Shown here piece by piece: positions 16,524-46,066 of a stretch of 53,683 nucleotides of DNA. The notes beneath the pieces were generated by a model. It had not been told where the DNA came from. It searched no databases and saw only the letters and a program-made list of their open reading frames with translations. Position 1 is the stretch's first letter, and every line of letters begins with the position of its first letter. This stretch comes from an uncultured Pelagibacteraceae bacterium (GTDB lineage Bacteria; Pseudomonadota; Alphaproteobacteria; Pelagibacterales; Pelagibacteraceae): positions 1 through 53,683 of the forward strand of contig CABZRN010000006.1 in NCBI GenBank assembly GCA_902528175.1, read 5' to 3'. The translations under genes were made by a program, and so were the position numbers.

Positions 16524-17924
16524 ATGTCTGAAAAATTTGATGCAATTGTTATAGGAGGTGGCCCTGGTGGATATGTTTGTGCAATAAGGCTTGCTCAACT
16601 AGGAAAAAAAACTGCATGTGTAGAATATAGAGGTACACTAGGTGGAACATGTTTAAATATTGGATGCATTCCTTCAAAAAATTTATTGAACCTCTCTGAA
16701 AATTTTCAAAAAGCAAAAAACTTTTCAAAAGTAGGTATTGAGATAAGTGATATTAAATTAAATCTTGATAAAATGATGAAAAATAAAGATAAAGCAGTAA
16801 CTGTATTGACTAAAGGAGTAGAATTTTTATTTAAAAAAAATAAAGTTTCTTATTTAAAGGGTTTCGGAAGCTTTGTTTCAGATAAAAAAATAAAGATCAA
16901 AGGTTCTGACGGCAAAGAGACTGAAATAGAAGGGGAAAATATAATTATAGCTACAGGCTCAGAGGCCTCTCAAATGCCAAATATTAAGTTTGATGAGAAA
17001 AGAATTGTATCTTCAACAGGAGCTCTTTCTTTAAAAAAAGTTCCTAAAAAAATGATTGTAATCGGTGGCGGATATATTGGGCTAGAAATGGGTTCTGTTT
17101 GGTCAAGATTAGGCTCTGATGTTCACGTGATTGAATTTTTAGATCACATTACACCTGGAATGGATAAAGAAATTTCAAATGAATTTATGAAAATTTTAAA
17201 AAAACAAAACATAAAATTTCATATGAGTACAAAAGTAGAGAAAATTATAAAAAAAGGAGAAAATTTAGAAATAGAGACTTCTAATATTAAAGGAGAAAAA
17301 AGCTCTCACGATTGTGATGTTGCTCTAATTTCAATAGGTAGAAAGGCATTTACTGATAACCTAAATTTAGAAAAAATAAACTTAAAAACTGACAAAAAAG
17401 GTAGAGTTAAAGTAGACAAAAATTTTAAGACAGATAAAAAAAATATTTTTGCTATAGGAGATGTAATCCAAGGTCCGATGTTAGCGCATAAGGCTGAAGA
17501 AGAAGGTATTGCAGTGGCAGAAATTATTGCAGGCCAATCTGGACATGTAAATTATGATTTAATTCCTGGAGTTATTTACACTTCTCCAGAGGTAGCAACT
17601 ATCGGAAAAACAGAGGAACAATTAATAAAACAAAATATAAGTTATAAAATAGGAAAGTTTCCATTCATGGCAAACTCTAGAGCTAAGGCAATAGATGAGC
17701 CTGAAGGCTTTGTAAAAATTTTAGCTGATAATTCGACTGACAAAGTGTTAGGGGTTCATATTATAGGTCCCCATGCTGGCGAAATGATTGCTGAAATGGC
17801 AGTTGCAATGGAATTTGGCGCAAGTTCTGAGGATATAGCAAGGACTTGTCATGCACATCCTACGTTTTCTGAAGCAATCAAAGAAGCTGCATTATCAGTA
17901 GATAAAAGACAAATTCATTCGTAA
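16524..17924 (+). CDS. lpd: dihydrolipoyl dehydrogenase (E3)
   Basis: Reoxidises dihydrolipoamide with NAD. The 466 residues show the FAD motif GGGPGGYVCA, the redox disulfide GGTCLNIGCIPSK, the NAD-binding GGGYIGLEMGS, the AIGDV motif and the C-terminal His-Glu pair in HAHPTFSEA. Its place after sucAB marks it as the E3 of the 2-oxoglutarate complex, although it may be shared with pyruvate dehydrogenase and glycine cleavage. Confidence 0.97.
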   Translation: MSEKFDAIVIGGGPGGYVCAIRLAQLGKKTACVEYRGTLGGTCLNIGCIPSKNLLNLSENFQKAKNFSKVGIEISDIKLNLDKMMKNKDKAVTVLTKGVEFLFKKNKVSYLKGFGSFVSDKKIKIKGSDGKETEIEGENIIIATGSEASQMPNIKFDEKRIVSSTGALSLKKVPKKMIVIGGGYIGLEMGSVWSRLGSDVHVIEFLDHITPGMDKEISNEFMKILKKQNIKFHMSTKVEKIIKKGENLEIETSNIKGEKSSHDCDVALISIGRKAFTDNLNLEKINLKTDKKGRVKVDKNFKTDKKNIFAIGDVIQGPMLAHKAEEEGIAVAEIIAGQSGHVNYDLIPGVIYTSPEVATIGKTEEQLIKQNISYKIGKFPFMANSRAKAIDEPEGFVKILADNSTDKVLGVHIIGPHAGEMIAEMAVAMEFGASSEDIARTCHAHPTFSEAIKEAALSVDKRQIHS

Positions 17925-17992: not shown

Positions 17993-18985
17993 ATGACAAA
18001 TTCTAATAAAAAATTAAAATATAAAACATCTGATAATGTCGATATTAGCAAACCATGGGATAAAGATAATCAAGCGTGGTGGGACTGGTATGTTAGTCTT
18101 GCAGATAATGATGGTAAACAAAGTGAAATAATTAATGCAGATCCATTACCAAATATTGTAATACCCAGTAATGATGAAGTTGTCTCAGAATTAGCTGAAC
18201 CTTACTATTTAACTAATTATCAAATTGATTTTTTTAAAAAAAATGGCTTCATAAAACTTAAAAGAGTTTTCTCACCTGGAGCTGTGTTAAAGCTTAGAGC
18301 TGAATTAATAAATTTATTAAAAGAAGAATTTAAGGTTGATCCAGATAAAGGAGCACAAGACCGTTTCCTAAGTCTTGAAGTAATTTGGCCTGATAACGCA
18401 CTTCTTCGTGCTTACGTATTATCACCGCGATTAGGTCAAATTTCAGCAGATCTTCTTACAGTACCAGCTGTTAGACTTTACCATGATAATGTGCTAGCAA
18501 AACAAACTGGTTGTGGTCGTACACCATGGCACTTTGATGATCACCACTTTCCGCTTGATACTAATGATGTAGTTACTGCCTGGATTCCTGCACAACCAAT
18601 CCCTCTTGAAATGGGACCACTCTCTTTTGCCTACCCACTAGATGTCCATAAATTAGTTAATGCTGTTACGTTTGAAAAGACTGGCACTGGATATGACCGT
18701 AAGGTTTCAGAGGTTTTTTTGAAAAATAATGTAAGTGTTAATGAAACTCCATTTGAATTAGGTGAAGTGAATGCAAAATTAATATCTGCTAAAGAACTTA
18801 AAGAAGATGAGGTAGAAAAAATCAAAAAAGAGCTTTTTTCTAAGTTTGGATCAAAAATTAATTTAGACTATAAAGTAGATAAAGATCTTATTTCAGGATT
18901 AATAATTCAAGTTGAAAGTATTATGATTGATAATTCTATGAAAAATAAACTTAAACAAATTAAATCACAGATGATCGAGGTATAA
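17993..18985 (+). CDS. chimera: PhyH-family dioxygenase fragment fused to AtpH C-terminal domain
   Basis: One uninterrupted 330-codon frame in the atpH position, directly before atpA. Residues 1 to about 259 look like a PhyH/phytanoyl-CoA dioxygenase-type Fe(II)/2-oxoglutarate enzyme: RLYHDNVLAKQ, then the metal motif His180-Phe-Asp182, WIPAQPIPLEMGPLSFA, and PFELGEV. The following PhyH segment (FHxGWTxHRA...R), with the distal iron histidine and 2-oxoglutarate arginine, is missing. Residues 257-330 are the C-terminal domain of F1 delta: GEVNAKLISAKELKEDE, VDKDLISGLI, MIDNSMKNKL. The delta N-terminal domain of about 105 residues, which binds alpha, is absent. GC falls from 42% (18361-18660, hand count) to about 24% (18781-18980). 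The frame is clear; function of the product is doubtful. A natural deletion fusion and an assembly or amplification chimera are both possible. Confidence 0.85.
   Translation: MTNSNKKLKYKTSDNVDISKPWDKDNQAWWDWYVSLADNDGKQSEIINADPLPNIVIPSNDEVVSELAEPYYLTNYQIDFFKKNGFIKLKRVFSPGAVLKLRAELINLLKEEFKVDPDKGAQDRFLSLEVIWPDNALLRAYVLSPRLGQISADLLTVPAVRLYHDNVLAKQTGCGRTPWHFDDHHFPLDTNDVVTAWIPAQPIPLEMGPLSFAYPLDVHKLVNAVTFEKTGTGYDRKVSEVFLKNNVSVNETPFELGEVNAKLISAKELKEDEVEKIKKELFSKFGSKINLDYKVDKDLISGLIIQVESIMIDNSMKNKLKQIKSQMIEV
18761..18769 (+). other. fusion point (GGTGAAGTG microhomology) between phyH and atpH parts
   Basis: These nine bases encode GEV. In PhyH proteins a PFxLGE/DV stretch precedes the FHxGWT segment, and in delta subunits a (R)GEV stretch starts the C-terminal domain, so GEV fits both parents. 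A deletion between two copies of this short direct repeat, one in an upstream phyH and one in atpH, would give exactly this in-frame product. This is inference: the parental sequences are not in the window. Confidence 0.5.
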
Positions 18986-20516
18986 ATGGATATAAATCCT
19001 TCAGAAGTAACAAAAATATTAAAAGAACAAATTAAAAAATTTGGAGACAAGTCTGAGGTTAGTGAAATTGGACAAGTTTTATCTGTTGGTGACGGTATAG
19101 CCAGAATATATGGTCTTGATAATGTTCAAGCTGGAGAGATGGTTGAATTCTCTGATGGATCAAAGGGAATGGCGTTAAACCTTGAAAGTGATAATGTTGG
19201 CGTAGTTATTTTTGGTGATGACAGAGCTATCAAAGAAGGAGACACAGTAAAAAGAACTGGATCAATTGTTGATGTTCCAGTCGGTAAACAATTATTAGGA
19301 AGAGTGGTTGATGGGTTAGGAAACCCGATAGATGGTAAAGCTAATCTTGAAAAAAATCTAGAAAGAAGAAGAGTGGAAGTAAAAGCACCAGGTATAATAC
19401 CGAGACAATCGGTAGGTGAACCAATGCAAACTGGTTTAAAATCGATAGATAGTTTAATTCCAATTGGTAGAGGCCAAAGAGAATTAATCATAGGAGATAG
19501 ACAAACTGGAAAAACTGCAGTCGCAATCGACACAATTATTAATCAAAAAAAAATTAATGAATCAGATGATGAAAGCAAAAAACTTTATTGTATTTATGTT
19601 GCTATAGGCCAAAAAAGATCTACAGTTGCGCAAATTGTAAAGACATTAGAGGATGCAGGTGCTATGGATTATACGACTATAGTTTCCGCAACAGCTTCAG
19701 ATTCTGCTCCATTACAATTCTTAGCTCCTTACACTGGTTGTGCTATGGGAGAATATTTTAGAGATAATGGAATGCATGCACTCATTATTTACGATGACTT
19801 ATCAAAACAAGCAGTAGCGTACCGTCAGATGTCTCTATTACTTAGAAGACCTCCAGGTAGAGAAGCTTATCCTGGTGATGTCTTTTATTTACACAGCAGA
19901 CTTCTAGAGAGAGCTGCTAAATTAAGCGATGCAAACGGTGGAGGTTCATTAACAGCATTACCTGTTATAGAGACACAAGCGGGAGATGTTTCTGCATATA
20001 TTCCAACTAATGTAATTTCTATTACAGATGGGCAAATTTTTTTAGAAACAGAATTGTTTAATCAAGGTATTAGACCAGCGGTTAATGTTGGGCTGTCAGT
20101 TTCGCGAGTTGGATCAGCCGCTCAAACTAAAGCGATGAAAAAAGTTGCAGGTTCAATTAAATTAGAATTGGCTCAATATAGAGAAATGGCAGCATTTGCT
20201 CAATTTGGTTCTGATTTAGATGCCTCAACTCAAAAATTGTTAAATAGAGGATCAAAATTAACAGAATTATTAAAGCAAAAACAATATTCACCAATGACTG
20301 TTGCAGAGCAAGTTTTAACTATATTTGCAGGTGTTAGAGGATACCTTGATGATATAGACTTAAAAAATATCGAAGATTTCGAAAAACAACTTTTGGAAAA
20401 ATGCAAATCTGAAAAACCTGATATTATTGACAGTATTTCTAGCTCTGGAAAGCTTGATGAAGATATAGAAAAAATATTAGTTTCTCTAATAAATAATTTA
20501 AAAGAAAAGTTTAAAA

Positions 20517-20524
<8 letters not shown>
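18986..20524 (+). CDS. atpA: F1 ATP synthase subunit alpha
   Basis: Non-catalytic nucleotide-binding subunit of F1, 512 residues, the usual length. It has the N-terminal [18 protein letters not shown], the Walker A GDRQTGKT at 170-177, the IYDDLSKQA Walker B region, [17 protein letters not shown] and the [10 protein letters not shown] signature. It begins directly after the chimeric gene's stop and overlaps atpG by 8 bases. Its N-terminal helix normally contacts the N-terminal domain of delta, which is not encoded upstream here. Confidence 0.97.
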
Positions 20525-42534: not shown

Positions 42535-43082
42535 TGAATAAGTTGTTCTTAACCTTATCCTTTTTAATGGGGTTAGTTGTTCTAGTTTCAAACTTTCTAG
42601 TCCAGTTTCCTGTCAAATATTATGGATTGGAAAATATTTTAACCTACGGAGCTTTTAGTTACCCAATAGCTTTTTTAATTACTGATTTAGCCAATAGGTC
42701 TTTTGGTAAAATAATAGCTAGAAAGATTGTTTATGTTGGGTTTACAATTGGTGTATTATTTACACTTATATTTTCTACAAATTTCTCAGACCTAATTTCA
42801 ATTAGAATAGCAATTGGGTCTGGGACAGCATTCATATTAGCCCAATTGTTAGATGTTCAAGTTTTTGATAAACTAAGGAGAAAAACATGGTTTGTTGCTC
42901 CTTTATTTTCATCACTAATAGGTTCAACTGTTGATACATTTTTATTTTTTTTTATTTCATTTTATGGAACTGGACTACCTTGGATAACATTATCTCTTGG
43001 TGACTTAGGTGTAAAAATATTTATAGCTTTAATTATGTTAATACCTTTCCGTTTACTATTGAGAACTTTGAAACCTATTTAA
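42534..43082 (+). CDS. YhhQ/VUT-family transporter (probable queuosine precursor uptake)
   Basis: Integral membrane protein of 182 residues with about six hydrophobic segments. The family signatures are FPITDLA-like FLITDLANRSFGKIIARK and the LAQLLDVQVFDKLRR block. In E. coli, YhhQ takes up the queuosine precursors preQ0 and preQ1. The substrate is inferred from the family. Its stop abuts the stop of the convergent aguA gene with no space between. Confidence 0.85.
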   Translation: MNKLFLTLSFLMGLVVLVSNFLVQFPVKYYGLENILTYGAFSYPIAFLITDLANRSFGKIIARKIVYVGFTIGVLFTLIFSTNFSDLISIRIAIGSGTAFILAQLLDVQVFDKLRRKTWFVAPLFSSLIGSTVDTFLFFFISFYGTGLPWITLSLGDLGVKIFIALIMLIPFRLLLRTLKPI

Positions 43083-44153
43083 TTAAATATCTGGCTCTTG
43101 TTGCGTCATACAATGTACTGCACCAAAACCCCAGATTAATTTACTGCAATCAATCGTAATAATTTTTCTATTATTAAAAAATCTTTTGAAAATTTTAAAA
43201 ACTTTAATATCTTTTTTATCATTATATATTGGAAGGAGTATTACCTTATTTCCAATAAAGAAGTTTAGATAAGTTGCTGGAACTTTTACTTTGTTAATAT
43301 ATTTAGGTTTTGGCATTGGAATTTTTATTATTTTAAATTTTTCTCCATTTATATCTCTTGCCTTTTTTAAAATTTTTAGATTTTCATTTAATATTTTATA
43401 ATTTCTTTCTTTTTTGTTTGTCTCGAAACAAGCCATTATTGTGTTTTTTGTAACAAATCTAGATATATCATCAATATGGCCGTGAGTATCATCACCTTTA
43501 ATACCCCTATTAAGCCATATAAAGTTTTTAATTCCAAGATATTTTCCTAAAAATAATTGATAATCTTTTTTTTTTAAGCCCGGATTTCTCTCCTGTTTTT
43601 TACTTAACAGACATTCTTTAGTTAATAAAACTGAACCTCTTCCATTTACATCAAATGCTCCACCCTCCAGAACAGGGTAATATTTTTTTTTATTATAAAT
43701 TATATATGGATTTACTTTTTTTACCCTAGTCATTTCACATATTTTAGAGGGAATTTTGTTATCCTTTTTAAAATTTCGATATTTCGACCACCCATTAAAC
43801 TCAAAGTTAAGAATTATTTTTTTACCGGTAATTTGATTTTTTACATAAATTGGACCAGAATCTCTAATCCATATTCTATCTGTATCAATTTTATAAAATT
43901 TAACATTAGGTTTTTTAAATCCTCTTAATTTTAATAGTTTTGTAATTTCATTTTTTTTTTCATTTTTTTGAATTATTAAGTTTACTTTTTGTGAAATTGA
44001 TAATTTAGAGATTATATTTGCAATAGTTCCAGGAATACTATTGAAATATCCTGGCCAATCTTTTTTATTATGTGGCCAAACAATCCATACTGATTTTTGT
44101 TTTTCAAATTCACCAGGCATTATAAAGCTACAAGTTTTTATAGCTTTAATCAT
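43083..44153 (-). CDS. aguA: agmatine deiminase
   Basis: Converts agmatine to N-carbamoylputrescine and ammonia. The 356 residues belong to the PAD_porph/AguA family: MPGEFEKQKSVWIVWPHN, DRIWIRDSGPIYV, LEGGAFDVNGRGSVLLT, GDDTHGHIDDISRF and the catalytic cysteine Cys348 in FGAVHCMTQQEP. The start overlaps the aguB stop by 8 bases; a start at the in-frame ATG 11 codons later is also possible. Last gene of the polyamine operon. Confidence 0.92.
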   Translation of the reverse strand: MIKAIKTCSFIMPGEFEKQKSVWIVWPHNKKDWPGYFNSIPGTIANIISKLSISQKVNLIIQKNEKKNEITKLLKLRGFKKPNVKFYKIDTDRIWIRDSGPIYVKNQITGKKIILNFEFNGWSKYRNFKKDNKIPSKICEMTRVKKVNPYIIYNKKKYYPVLEGGAFDVNGRGSVLLTKECLLSKKQERNPGLKKKDYQLFLGKYLGIKNFIWLNRGIKGDDTHGHIDDISRFVTKNTIMACFETNKKERNYKILNENLKILKKARDINGEKFKIIKIPMPKPKYINKVKVPATYLNFFIGNKVILLPIYNDKKDIKVFKIFKRFFNNRKIITIDCSKLIWGFGAVHCMTQQEPDI

Positions 44154-45027
44154 CTTTAGGATTTTTTAATATACTTTTATATGCATCAATTCTTCTATCT
44201 CTCAAAAAAGGCCAATGTTGTCTGGTACTTTCAATTTTCCTTAAATCAATTTCCGTAATGAGAACACCATCTTTTTTATTTCCCAATTTACCAATAATTT
44301 TACCACTTGGATCCGAAACAAATGAGTTTCCCCAAAAATCGATTTTGGTCTTACCGTTTCTTTCAATCCCAACTCTGTTTATTGCTGCAACATACACTCC
44401 ATTTGCAATAGCATGTGATCGTTGGATGGTTATCCACGAATCTAATTGTTTTTTTCCAAATTCCTTCTTTTCTTTGGGGTGCCATCCTATTGCAGTAGGA
44501 TAAAAAATAATATCTGCACCTTTTAAGGCTGTTATTCTTGCTGCTTCAGGAAACCATTGGTCCCAACAAATAAGAGATCCAATATTGCAATACTTGGTTC
44601 TAGTACTTTTAAAACCAAGATCGCCAGGCGTAAAATAAAATTTTTCGTAATATCCTGGGTCATCGGGAATATGCATTTTTCTATATTTATTAATTATCTT
44701 CCCTTTTTCATTAATTATGAGAATTGTATTATGGTACATTCCAGAAATTTTTTTTTCAAATAAAGATAAAATTAAAACAACAGAAAATTCTTTTGCAGTT
44801 TTACAAAAAATATCAGTTGTTTTATTTGGAATTTTCTCGGCTAATTTAAAGTTTGAATGTTTTTCAGTTTGACAAAAATATTTAGACAAAAATAATTCAG
44901 GAACACATATAATTTTAGCCCCTTTATTTGATGCAACTTTAATTTTTGAAATAGCATTTTTTAAGTTTAATTCTATATCTTTTGAAATTTTTAATTGAAT
45001 TAAACCAATCTTGGTTTTTTTTGTCAT
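44146..45027 (-). CDS. aguB: N-carbamoylputrescine amidohydrolase
   Basis: Nitrilase-superfamily enzyme that hydrolyses N-carbamoylputrescine to putrescine, CO2 and ammonia. The Glu-Lys-Cys triad is Glu44 (CVPELF), Lys117 (KYRKMHIPDD) and Cys154 (LICWDQWFPE). I start it at the ATG at 45027 (293 residues, MTKKTKIGLIQLK), 4 bases after the preceding gene. A longer frame up to 45096 would run into that gene and lacks family similarity. Pairing with aguA fixes the likely substrate. Confidence 0.92.
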   Translation of the reverse strand: MTKKTKIGLIQLKISKDIELNLKNAISKIKVASNKGAKIICVPELFLSKYFCQTEKHSNFKLAEKIPNKTTDIFCKTAKEFSVVLILSLFEKKISGMYHNTILIINEKGKIINKYRKMHIPDDPGYYEKFYFTPGDLGFKSTRTKYCNIGSLICWDQWFPEAARITALKGADIIFYPTAIGWHPKEKKEFGKKQLDSWITIQRSHAIANGVYVAAINRVGIERNGKTKIDFWGNSFVSDPSGKIIGKLGNKKDGVLITEIDLRKIESTRQHWPFLRDRRIDAYKSILKNPKDD

Positions 45028-45031
45028 ATTG

Positions 45032-46066
45032 TCAAAATAATTTGGAAAAGTTTTTTCTTTTCCTTTTTTTCCATTCACCCCTATGGTAAGCATCACTCAC
45101 TATAAGAGGTAATACACTTGTAGCCTCAGCAAAAACCATTTGCTCTTTAGAAGTATCAACTTTACCCCAGGAGCTTGCCTCTTTTAAAGTGGAACTGCTA
45201 CAAGCTCCATCTCTAGAATCAGCTACAGTTACTTGAATTGCATATTTATGCATGTCTACATCTTTACCCAACAGTTCAGCACAAATTACTGTATCTTGAA
45301 TAAAATTTTTTGGTACACCTCCACCAATCATAAATAAGCCCGATCCTTCTGACCTTATCTTTATCTCAGTTAATTCTCTAAATTCTCTTATTGAATCGAT
45401 AGTCATATGTTTTTTAGGATTTTTTTCTTGATGCATTACTAACCCAAACCCGGCACTTGAGTCTGTGAATGCAGGACAAAATATGGGTACGTGGCAGTCA
45501 TATGACATTTCAATTAAAGAACCTTTTTTCTTTGCATTTTTTTTTAAATATTTGCCAAGTTCATAGATAAATTCTCTTGATGTGTAGGATCGTGGTTCAA
45601 GAGAGTCAGCAATTTCTCCAATGACTTTATCACAATGTTGAAGTTCCTCTTCGTCTATATAAGTGTCATATATCCTATCAATATAATTTTTCCTTAATTT
45701 AGAGTCATCTTGAAATTGAGAGCCTTGATAATGATTAAAACCCAAAGCTTCAAAGAAATCCATATCAATAATTGATGCTCCAGTTGCGACTATTGCATCA
45801 ACCATATTGTATTTAACCAAATCTCTATAAATATGCATACATCCAGCTGCAGATGTTGATCCCGCTAATGTTAAAAAAATAGTGCAATCTTTTTCACTTA
45901 GCATTTCATTATAGATTTTTGCAGCATTAGCTGTCTCTCGAGATACAAAAGACATTTTTTCCATTGAAGAAATTATAGGTCTTGCATCAAACTTCGTTAT
46001 GTCAATATGTTCAACCGGTTTATTTAGAAAATCTTTTTTACTATTATGACCTAGTGTTTTTTTCAC
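45032..46066 (-). CDS. deoxyhypusine synthase-like protein
   Basis: A 344-residue member of the deoxyhypusine synthase family, NAD-dependent enzymes that transfer aminobutyl groups. It shows LTLAGSTSAAGCMHIY, VATGASIIDMDF, HYQGSQFQDDSKLR, FCPAFTDSSAGFG and the catalytic lysine Lys302 in SSWGKVD, aligned with human Lys329 (SWGKI). Bacteria lack eIF5A, so it should act on a free amine, for example making homospermidine from putrescine; the product is not certain. It sits between the decarboxylase and aguB. Confidence 0.88.
   Translation of the reverse strand: MKKTLGHNSKKDFLNKPVEHIDITKFDARPIISSMEKMSFVSRETANAAKIYNEMLSEKDCTIFLTLAGSTSAAGCMHIYRDLVKYNMVDAIVATGASIIDMDFFEALGFNHYQGSQFQDDSKLRKNYIDRIYDTYIDEEELQHCDKVIGEIADSLEPRSYTSREFIYELGKYLKKNAKKKGSLIEMSYDCHVPIFCPAFTDSSAGFGLVMHQEKNPKKHMTIDSIREFRELTEIKIRSEGSGLFMIGGGVPKNFIQDTVICAELLGKDVDMHKYAIQVTVADSRDGACSSSTLKEASSWGKVDTSKEQMVFAEATSVLPLIVSDAYHRGEWKKRKRKNFSKLF

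Follow-up and report, generated by a model that had tools for sequence, protein, structure and literature searches.

An open reading frame (ORF) at positions 17993–18985 (+) of the window, by which we mean the whole 53,683 nt stretch of SAR11 DNA analysed here, joins part of a phyH gene to part of the gene for the ATP synthase delta subunit, atpH. The join is a deletion-type junction in which phyH codon 259 has been placed onto the 3′ half of atpH, with approximately 4.5 kb missing, and is not a real feature. The ORF is most probably a microhomology chimera derived from single-cell amplification of the multiple displacement (MDA) type, not an evolved gene.

Composition of the ORF

The frame is open for 330 codons (330 aa, no internal stops) and is made up of PhyH residues 1–259 followed by 71 residues of delta. 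The stop codon ends at 18985 and atpA starts at 18986, placing the delta part where delta is usually found, just before atpA. The phyH part (17993–18769, +) lacks the last approximately 72 codons of the gene found in relatives, including those for His 268 and Arg 279, and the atpH part (18761–18985, +; 74 codons and the stop, including a GEV shared with the phyH part) encodes only the C-terminal region of delta. At the join lies an 11 nt word, AGGTGAAGTGA (18760–18770, +). Both neighbours are intact ORFs, with lpd (dihydrolipoamide dehydrogenase; 16524–17924, +; 97 % identical to lpd of relative L041) on the left and atpA (18986–20524, +; 98 % identical to atpA of relative L042) on the right.

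Pfam matches were obtained for PhyH (40.4 bits, residues 81–212) and for OSCP/delta (64.6 bits, residues 257–327) and, because both exceed the Pfam curated cut-offs, the two domains are more than chance resemblances. The PhyH match covers profile positions 1–145 of 213 and is not full length, and that to OSCP/delta covers positions 101–172 of 172, so that the C-terminal region of delta is present and positions 1–100, corresponding to the N-terminal, alpha-binding domain, are unmatched. The same profiles are matched at positions 1–212 by PhyH and 4–172 by delta of L042. Hence, the PhyH partner and the delta partner are both incomplete. The initial annotation had described one intact frame joining approximately 259 PhyH residues, with a His180-x-Asp182 iron motif, to the C-terminal part of delta, and this description stands, the HxD motif being HFD at residues 180–182. 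Its count of 74 delta residues holds if the shared GEV is included, but only 71 residues follow residue 259.

The ORF includes no His and no Arg past residue 259 and is, thus, without the distal His and the 2-oxoglutarate-binding Arg of PhyH enzymes, as had been claimed. Five residues (H262, H263, H268, R277 and R279) are invariant in all 18 aligned relatives and all lie past the join in the window; we take H268 and R279 to be the catalytic pair from the His-to-Arg spacing of 11 in PHYH and EctD. The HxD and FHT-x9-R motifs were both found in 79 of the 80 phyH loci examined, the exception, L089, having FHSAP instead, with undetermined bases nearby.

The locus in related genomes

The sample of phyH loci consisted of 80 kept from 158 found, and it overlaps with the set of 398 genomes of the genus used below, many of which are also among the 201 genomes used there. 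In 18 of the 80, lpd precedes phyH, and all 16 of these that reach atpH share the order lpd-phyH-methyltransferase-egtD-priA-atpH-atpA (L042, L043, L070 and L080 among them); in the remaining two, L041 and L067, the contig ends within egtD and priA. The atpH match of L069 ends at 161 of 176, in an ORF that is open to the end. Complete phyH and atpH genes, which the initial annotation had named as a finding in relatives that would point to an artefact, are present at 16 of 16 loci. The ancestral order that it proposed, lpd-phyH-atpH, is right as to the flanking genes but not as to direct adjacency, as the methyltransferase, egtD and priA genes intervene in relatives. In genomes G035 and G032, phyH and atpH are likewise separate, approximately 4.7 kb apart.

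The other 62 loci showed no lpd next to phyH; in 19 of them, egtB is just upstream. Genome G069 (atpA 98 % and atpD 99.6 % identical to those of the window) has the order lpd-priA-atpH-atpA without the phyH-methyltransferase-egtD cassette. The cassette thus varies between lineages, and priA and a full atpH are present in G069 too.

The place of the phyH-SAM methyltransferase-egtD cassette (L042, 746–3581; L036, 6869–11036) varies among SAR11 relatives, being after lpd in 18/80 loci and just after egtB in 19/80, and some loci have no egtD match beside phyH. The cassette PhyH gave a match to methylphosphonate hydroxylase far below the cut-off (17.1 bits against 500). PhyH and methyltransferase genes were also found near each other in L112, L115 and L117–L120, where identity to the PhyH part of the window is 61–76 %; the titles of these records name Marivita, Burkholderiales, Thioalkalivibrio, Rhodobacteraceae and Rhodosalinus. 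Within the collection of papers searched, none combined SAR11 with ergothioneine and egtD.

A direct repeat at the join and the missing stretch

The nearest complete relative, L042 (AG-343-E19), takes in the locus from a point inside lpd as far as atpA. Exact copies of AGGTGAAGTGA are present in the phyH and atpH genes of L042, 4513 bp apart in direct orientation, and this is the longest and the only word of at least 11 nt that the two genes have in common. The shorter repeat GGTGAAGTG, which the initial annotation placed at the join, is real and forms part of a longer common word in L042. The window matches L042 phyH up to AGGTGAAGTGA and L042 atpH beyond it, and the switch is exactly there; when each side is aligned on its own, the alignments abut or overlap at 18750–18773. 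The neighbouring genes are 93–98 % identical between the window and L041 and L042. Both sides of the join align with one close relative, L042 (94 and 96 %), so no foreign sequence has been joined. Three whole genes (methyltransferase, egtD and priA) are missing from the window relative to L042, as are the end of phyH, which encodes the distal His and Arg, and the half of atpH encoding the N-terminal part of delta. The relatives thus bear out in detail the proposal that loss of the DNA between two short repeats in direct orientation left both partners incomplete.

When the missing stretch of L042 was searched for in the assembly that includes the window (62 % complete, 28 contigs, approximately 38 % of the genome absent), only 85 bases, from the atpH side of the join, were recovered. 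As controls, the same query was found in full in the genome of L042 itself (G399) and in G252, and in part in G069, which has no cassette, and G400, where a contig ends. The PriA protein was also not found in the 62 % complete assembly, the DNA query being the one controlled in these four genomes. The idea of a second atpH elsewhere found no backing, as the only OSCP match in the same 62 % complete assembly is that of the window.

These findings could also reflect a true and recent deletion in the sorted cell, with slippage or end joining between the 11 nt words removing approximately 4.5 kb, though we consider this unlikely. A direct repeat suits slippage in vivo too and the junction fits equally, and a true deletion explains why no other part of the assembly contains the missing stretch. 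Assemblers use k-mers longer than 11 nt and would not be expected to make a join on so short a word, and the joined molecule therefore probably existed. However, the deletion costs PriA and a complete delta, and the loss of PriA together with half of delta is one that a cell living by respiration could scarcely afford, which disfavours this explanation. The cell would have to be a loss-of-function mutant, doomed or rare, that was caught before dying out, a scenario to which we attach the same small likelihood. Such a deletion was seen in none of the 398 other genomes of the genus and none of the 80 loci searched, and single-cell genomes are reported to contain assembly errors commonly (PMC1855051, PMC6122165, PMC11247762).

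Elsewhere in the 53.7 kb window, every part has a collinear match in one or more of four relatives; near 43075–45032, G069 has approximately 0.9 kb where the window has 2.0 kb, and G399 runs through. No inverted repeats of at least 40 nt were found in the window, and two further 20 kb stretches of the same assembly (L129 and L130), compared with four distinct genomes, revealed no break of the kind seen at the join. The assembly is without approximately 1.1 kb near position 16867 of L130 (extra in G400) and approximately 1.4 kb near position 14200 of L129 (extra in G399); because at least one other relative runs through both places without them, we take these to be insertions in G400 and G399. 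One segment of L129 (9876–11650, contig C1) has no match at E≤1e-30 in the four distinct relatives, the exception being approximately 20 bases in G399 at the right-hand edge; in G069 and G400 the sequence on either side is collinear, and the segment looks like an ordinary local replacement.

Conservation and constraint

Neither side of the join departs from normal substitution, and there is no visible trace of ageing at the join itself. Residues 1–260 share 97 % amino acid identity with PhyH of both L041 and L042, and dN/dS for the phyH part is 0.13 against L042 and 0.07 against L041 (L041 against L042, 0.11). For the atpH part it is 0.15 against L042 and 0.25 against G069 (L042 against G069, 0.54), these values being rough because the part is short (74 codons, with five differences to L042). 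The flanking genes gave 0.05 for atpA and 0.09 and 0.05 for lpd. A decayed pseudogene was rejected on the basis of the normal dN/dS values. Structure prediction was not used, as the control, an intact relative, failed (mean pLDDT 32.6; fusion 51.3).

The open frame and the normal constraint on both sides are what a functional, maintained fusion would predict, with PhyH serving as a domain newly added at the N-terminus of a variant stator subunit and with priA, and any full-length delta, lying in the approximately 38 % of the genome that is outside the assembly. Against this, both partners are without their defining residues or domains, and there was no match across the join (E≤1e-25) in the other 398 genomes of the genus, phyH being matched in 25 of them. 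The same join is also missing from all 80 phyH loci, including two with a PhyH part that is 97 % identical, so that the proposed search for other proteins with this join found none in either set. Among the matches listed for 201 genomes of the genus, that of the window included, those outside the genome of the window stop at residue 260 or else start at residue 240 or beyond it. Within the collection of papers searched, none dealt with a fusion protein of the ATP synthase delta subunit and phytanoyl-CoA dioxygenase. We regard a functional fusion as highly improbable, and it is just as hard to credit that, in a variant F1Fo stator, the binding of alpha has passed from the missing N-terminal domain of delta to the PhyH fragment. 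Any protein made would presumably be inert as an oxygenase, because the distal His and the 2-oxoglutarate Arg are lost, and as delta, because the alpha-binding domain is lost. If the ORF did nonetheless come from a variant that is real and viable, the requirement of the stator for an N-terminal domain in delta would be called into question.

Origin of the join

The genome that includes the window appears to be a single amplified genome (SAG), judging from its completeness of 62 %, its 28 contigs and its nearest named relatives, which are AG- isolates. Were it instead assembled from a metagenome, an amplification chimera would be less likely and the join might be a misassembly of metagenomic reads. 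Both sides of the join, however, match L042, and an 11 nt overlap is too short for the usual assembler k-mers; a misassembly of this sort has very little probability.

The organism very probably carries lpd-phyH-methyltransferase-egtD-priA-atpH-atpA, an order that is seen in relatives and that we extend to this cell. During phi29 multiple displacement amplification from one cell, a displaced 3′ end in one copy of AGGTGAAGTGA would have re-primed on the other, approximately 4.5 kb away in direct orientation. The joined molecule would have been amplified and, if the intact stretch was poorly covered, the assembler would have followed the joined molecule. That the frame remained open is luck, since both copies of AGGTGAAGTGA are read in the same frame, as seen in L042. 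Of the three options initially offered, we prefer the artefact; its main, though distinctly weaker, rival is a true deletion in the cell, and a new use of the fusion lacks support.

A single-cell workflow used for marine SAGs gave a mean of 1.5 misassemblies per 100 kb with three benchmark cultures (PMC6122165), a figure repeated for GORG-Tropics (PMC11247762). At this rate approximately 0.8 misassemblies are expected in 53.7 kb, of which the direct short-range kind would be only a small part. Some points count against a chimera. Direct joins over <10 kb are rare, making up 11 of 475 MDA chimeras in the counts reported (PMC1855051), and in the comparison reported for SAGs, misassemblies tended to be fewest in P. 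marinus, an organism with a small genome (PMC5519541). The intact 4.5 kb is absent even as a separate contig, as a true deletion also predicts, and the absence of long inverted repeats from the window and of a like break from L129 and L130 weighs in the same direction.

Caution is needed with draft genomes, in which a deletion at a microhomology can produce an uninterrupted frame resembling a domain fusion, and in which priA and half of atpH can then appear to have been lost.

Comparison with known systems

A natural fusion of subunit B and delta occurs in mycobacteria, and it keeps the delta N-terminal domain. As in the window ORF, the delta C-terminal region ends a larger protein, but the delta N-terminal domain is lost in the window ORF, unlike in the natural fusion. 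The corresponding family model (NCBIfam NF009961) matched the window ORF with 20.5 bits, far below the cut-off of 328, and only over profile positions 373–442 of 445.

Compared with the SAR11 lpd-to-atpA locus, the same genes flank the join, and the window is without the 4513 bp that separate phyH codon 259 from the second half of atpH in L042.

A further likeness is to the direct-orientation MDA chimeras described by Lasken and Stockwell (2007; PMC1855051). Though those were counted in single reads and the join in the window is in an assembled contig, the chimeras described there connect segments of the same genome in the same orientation, <10 kb apart, and the connection falls within a short repeat that is exact. 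At 90.9 % of such MDA junctions the ends were complementary over 2 to 21 bases. The join in the window is alike, connecting nearby segments in the same orientation, 4513 bp apart in L042, within 11 nt of microhomology.
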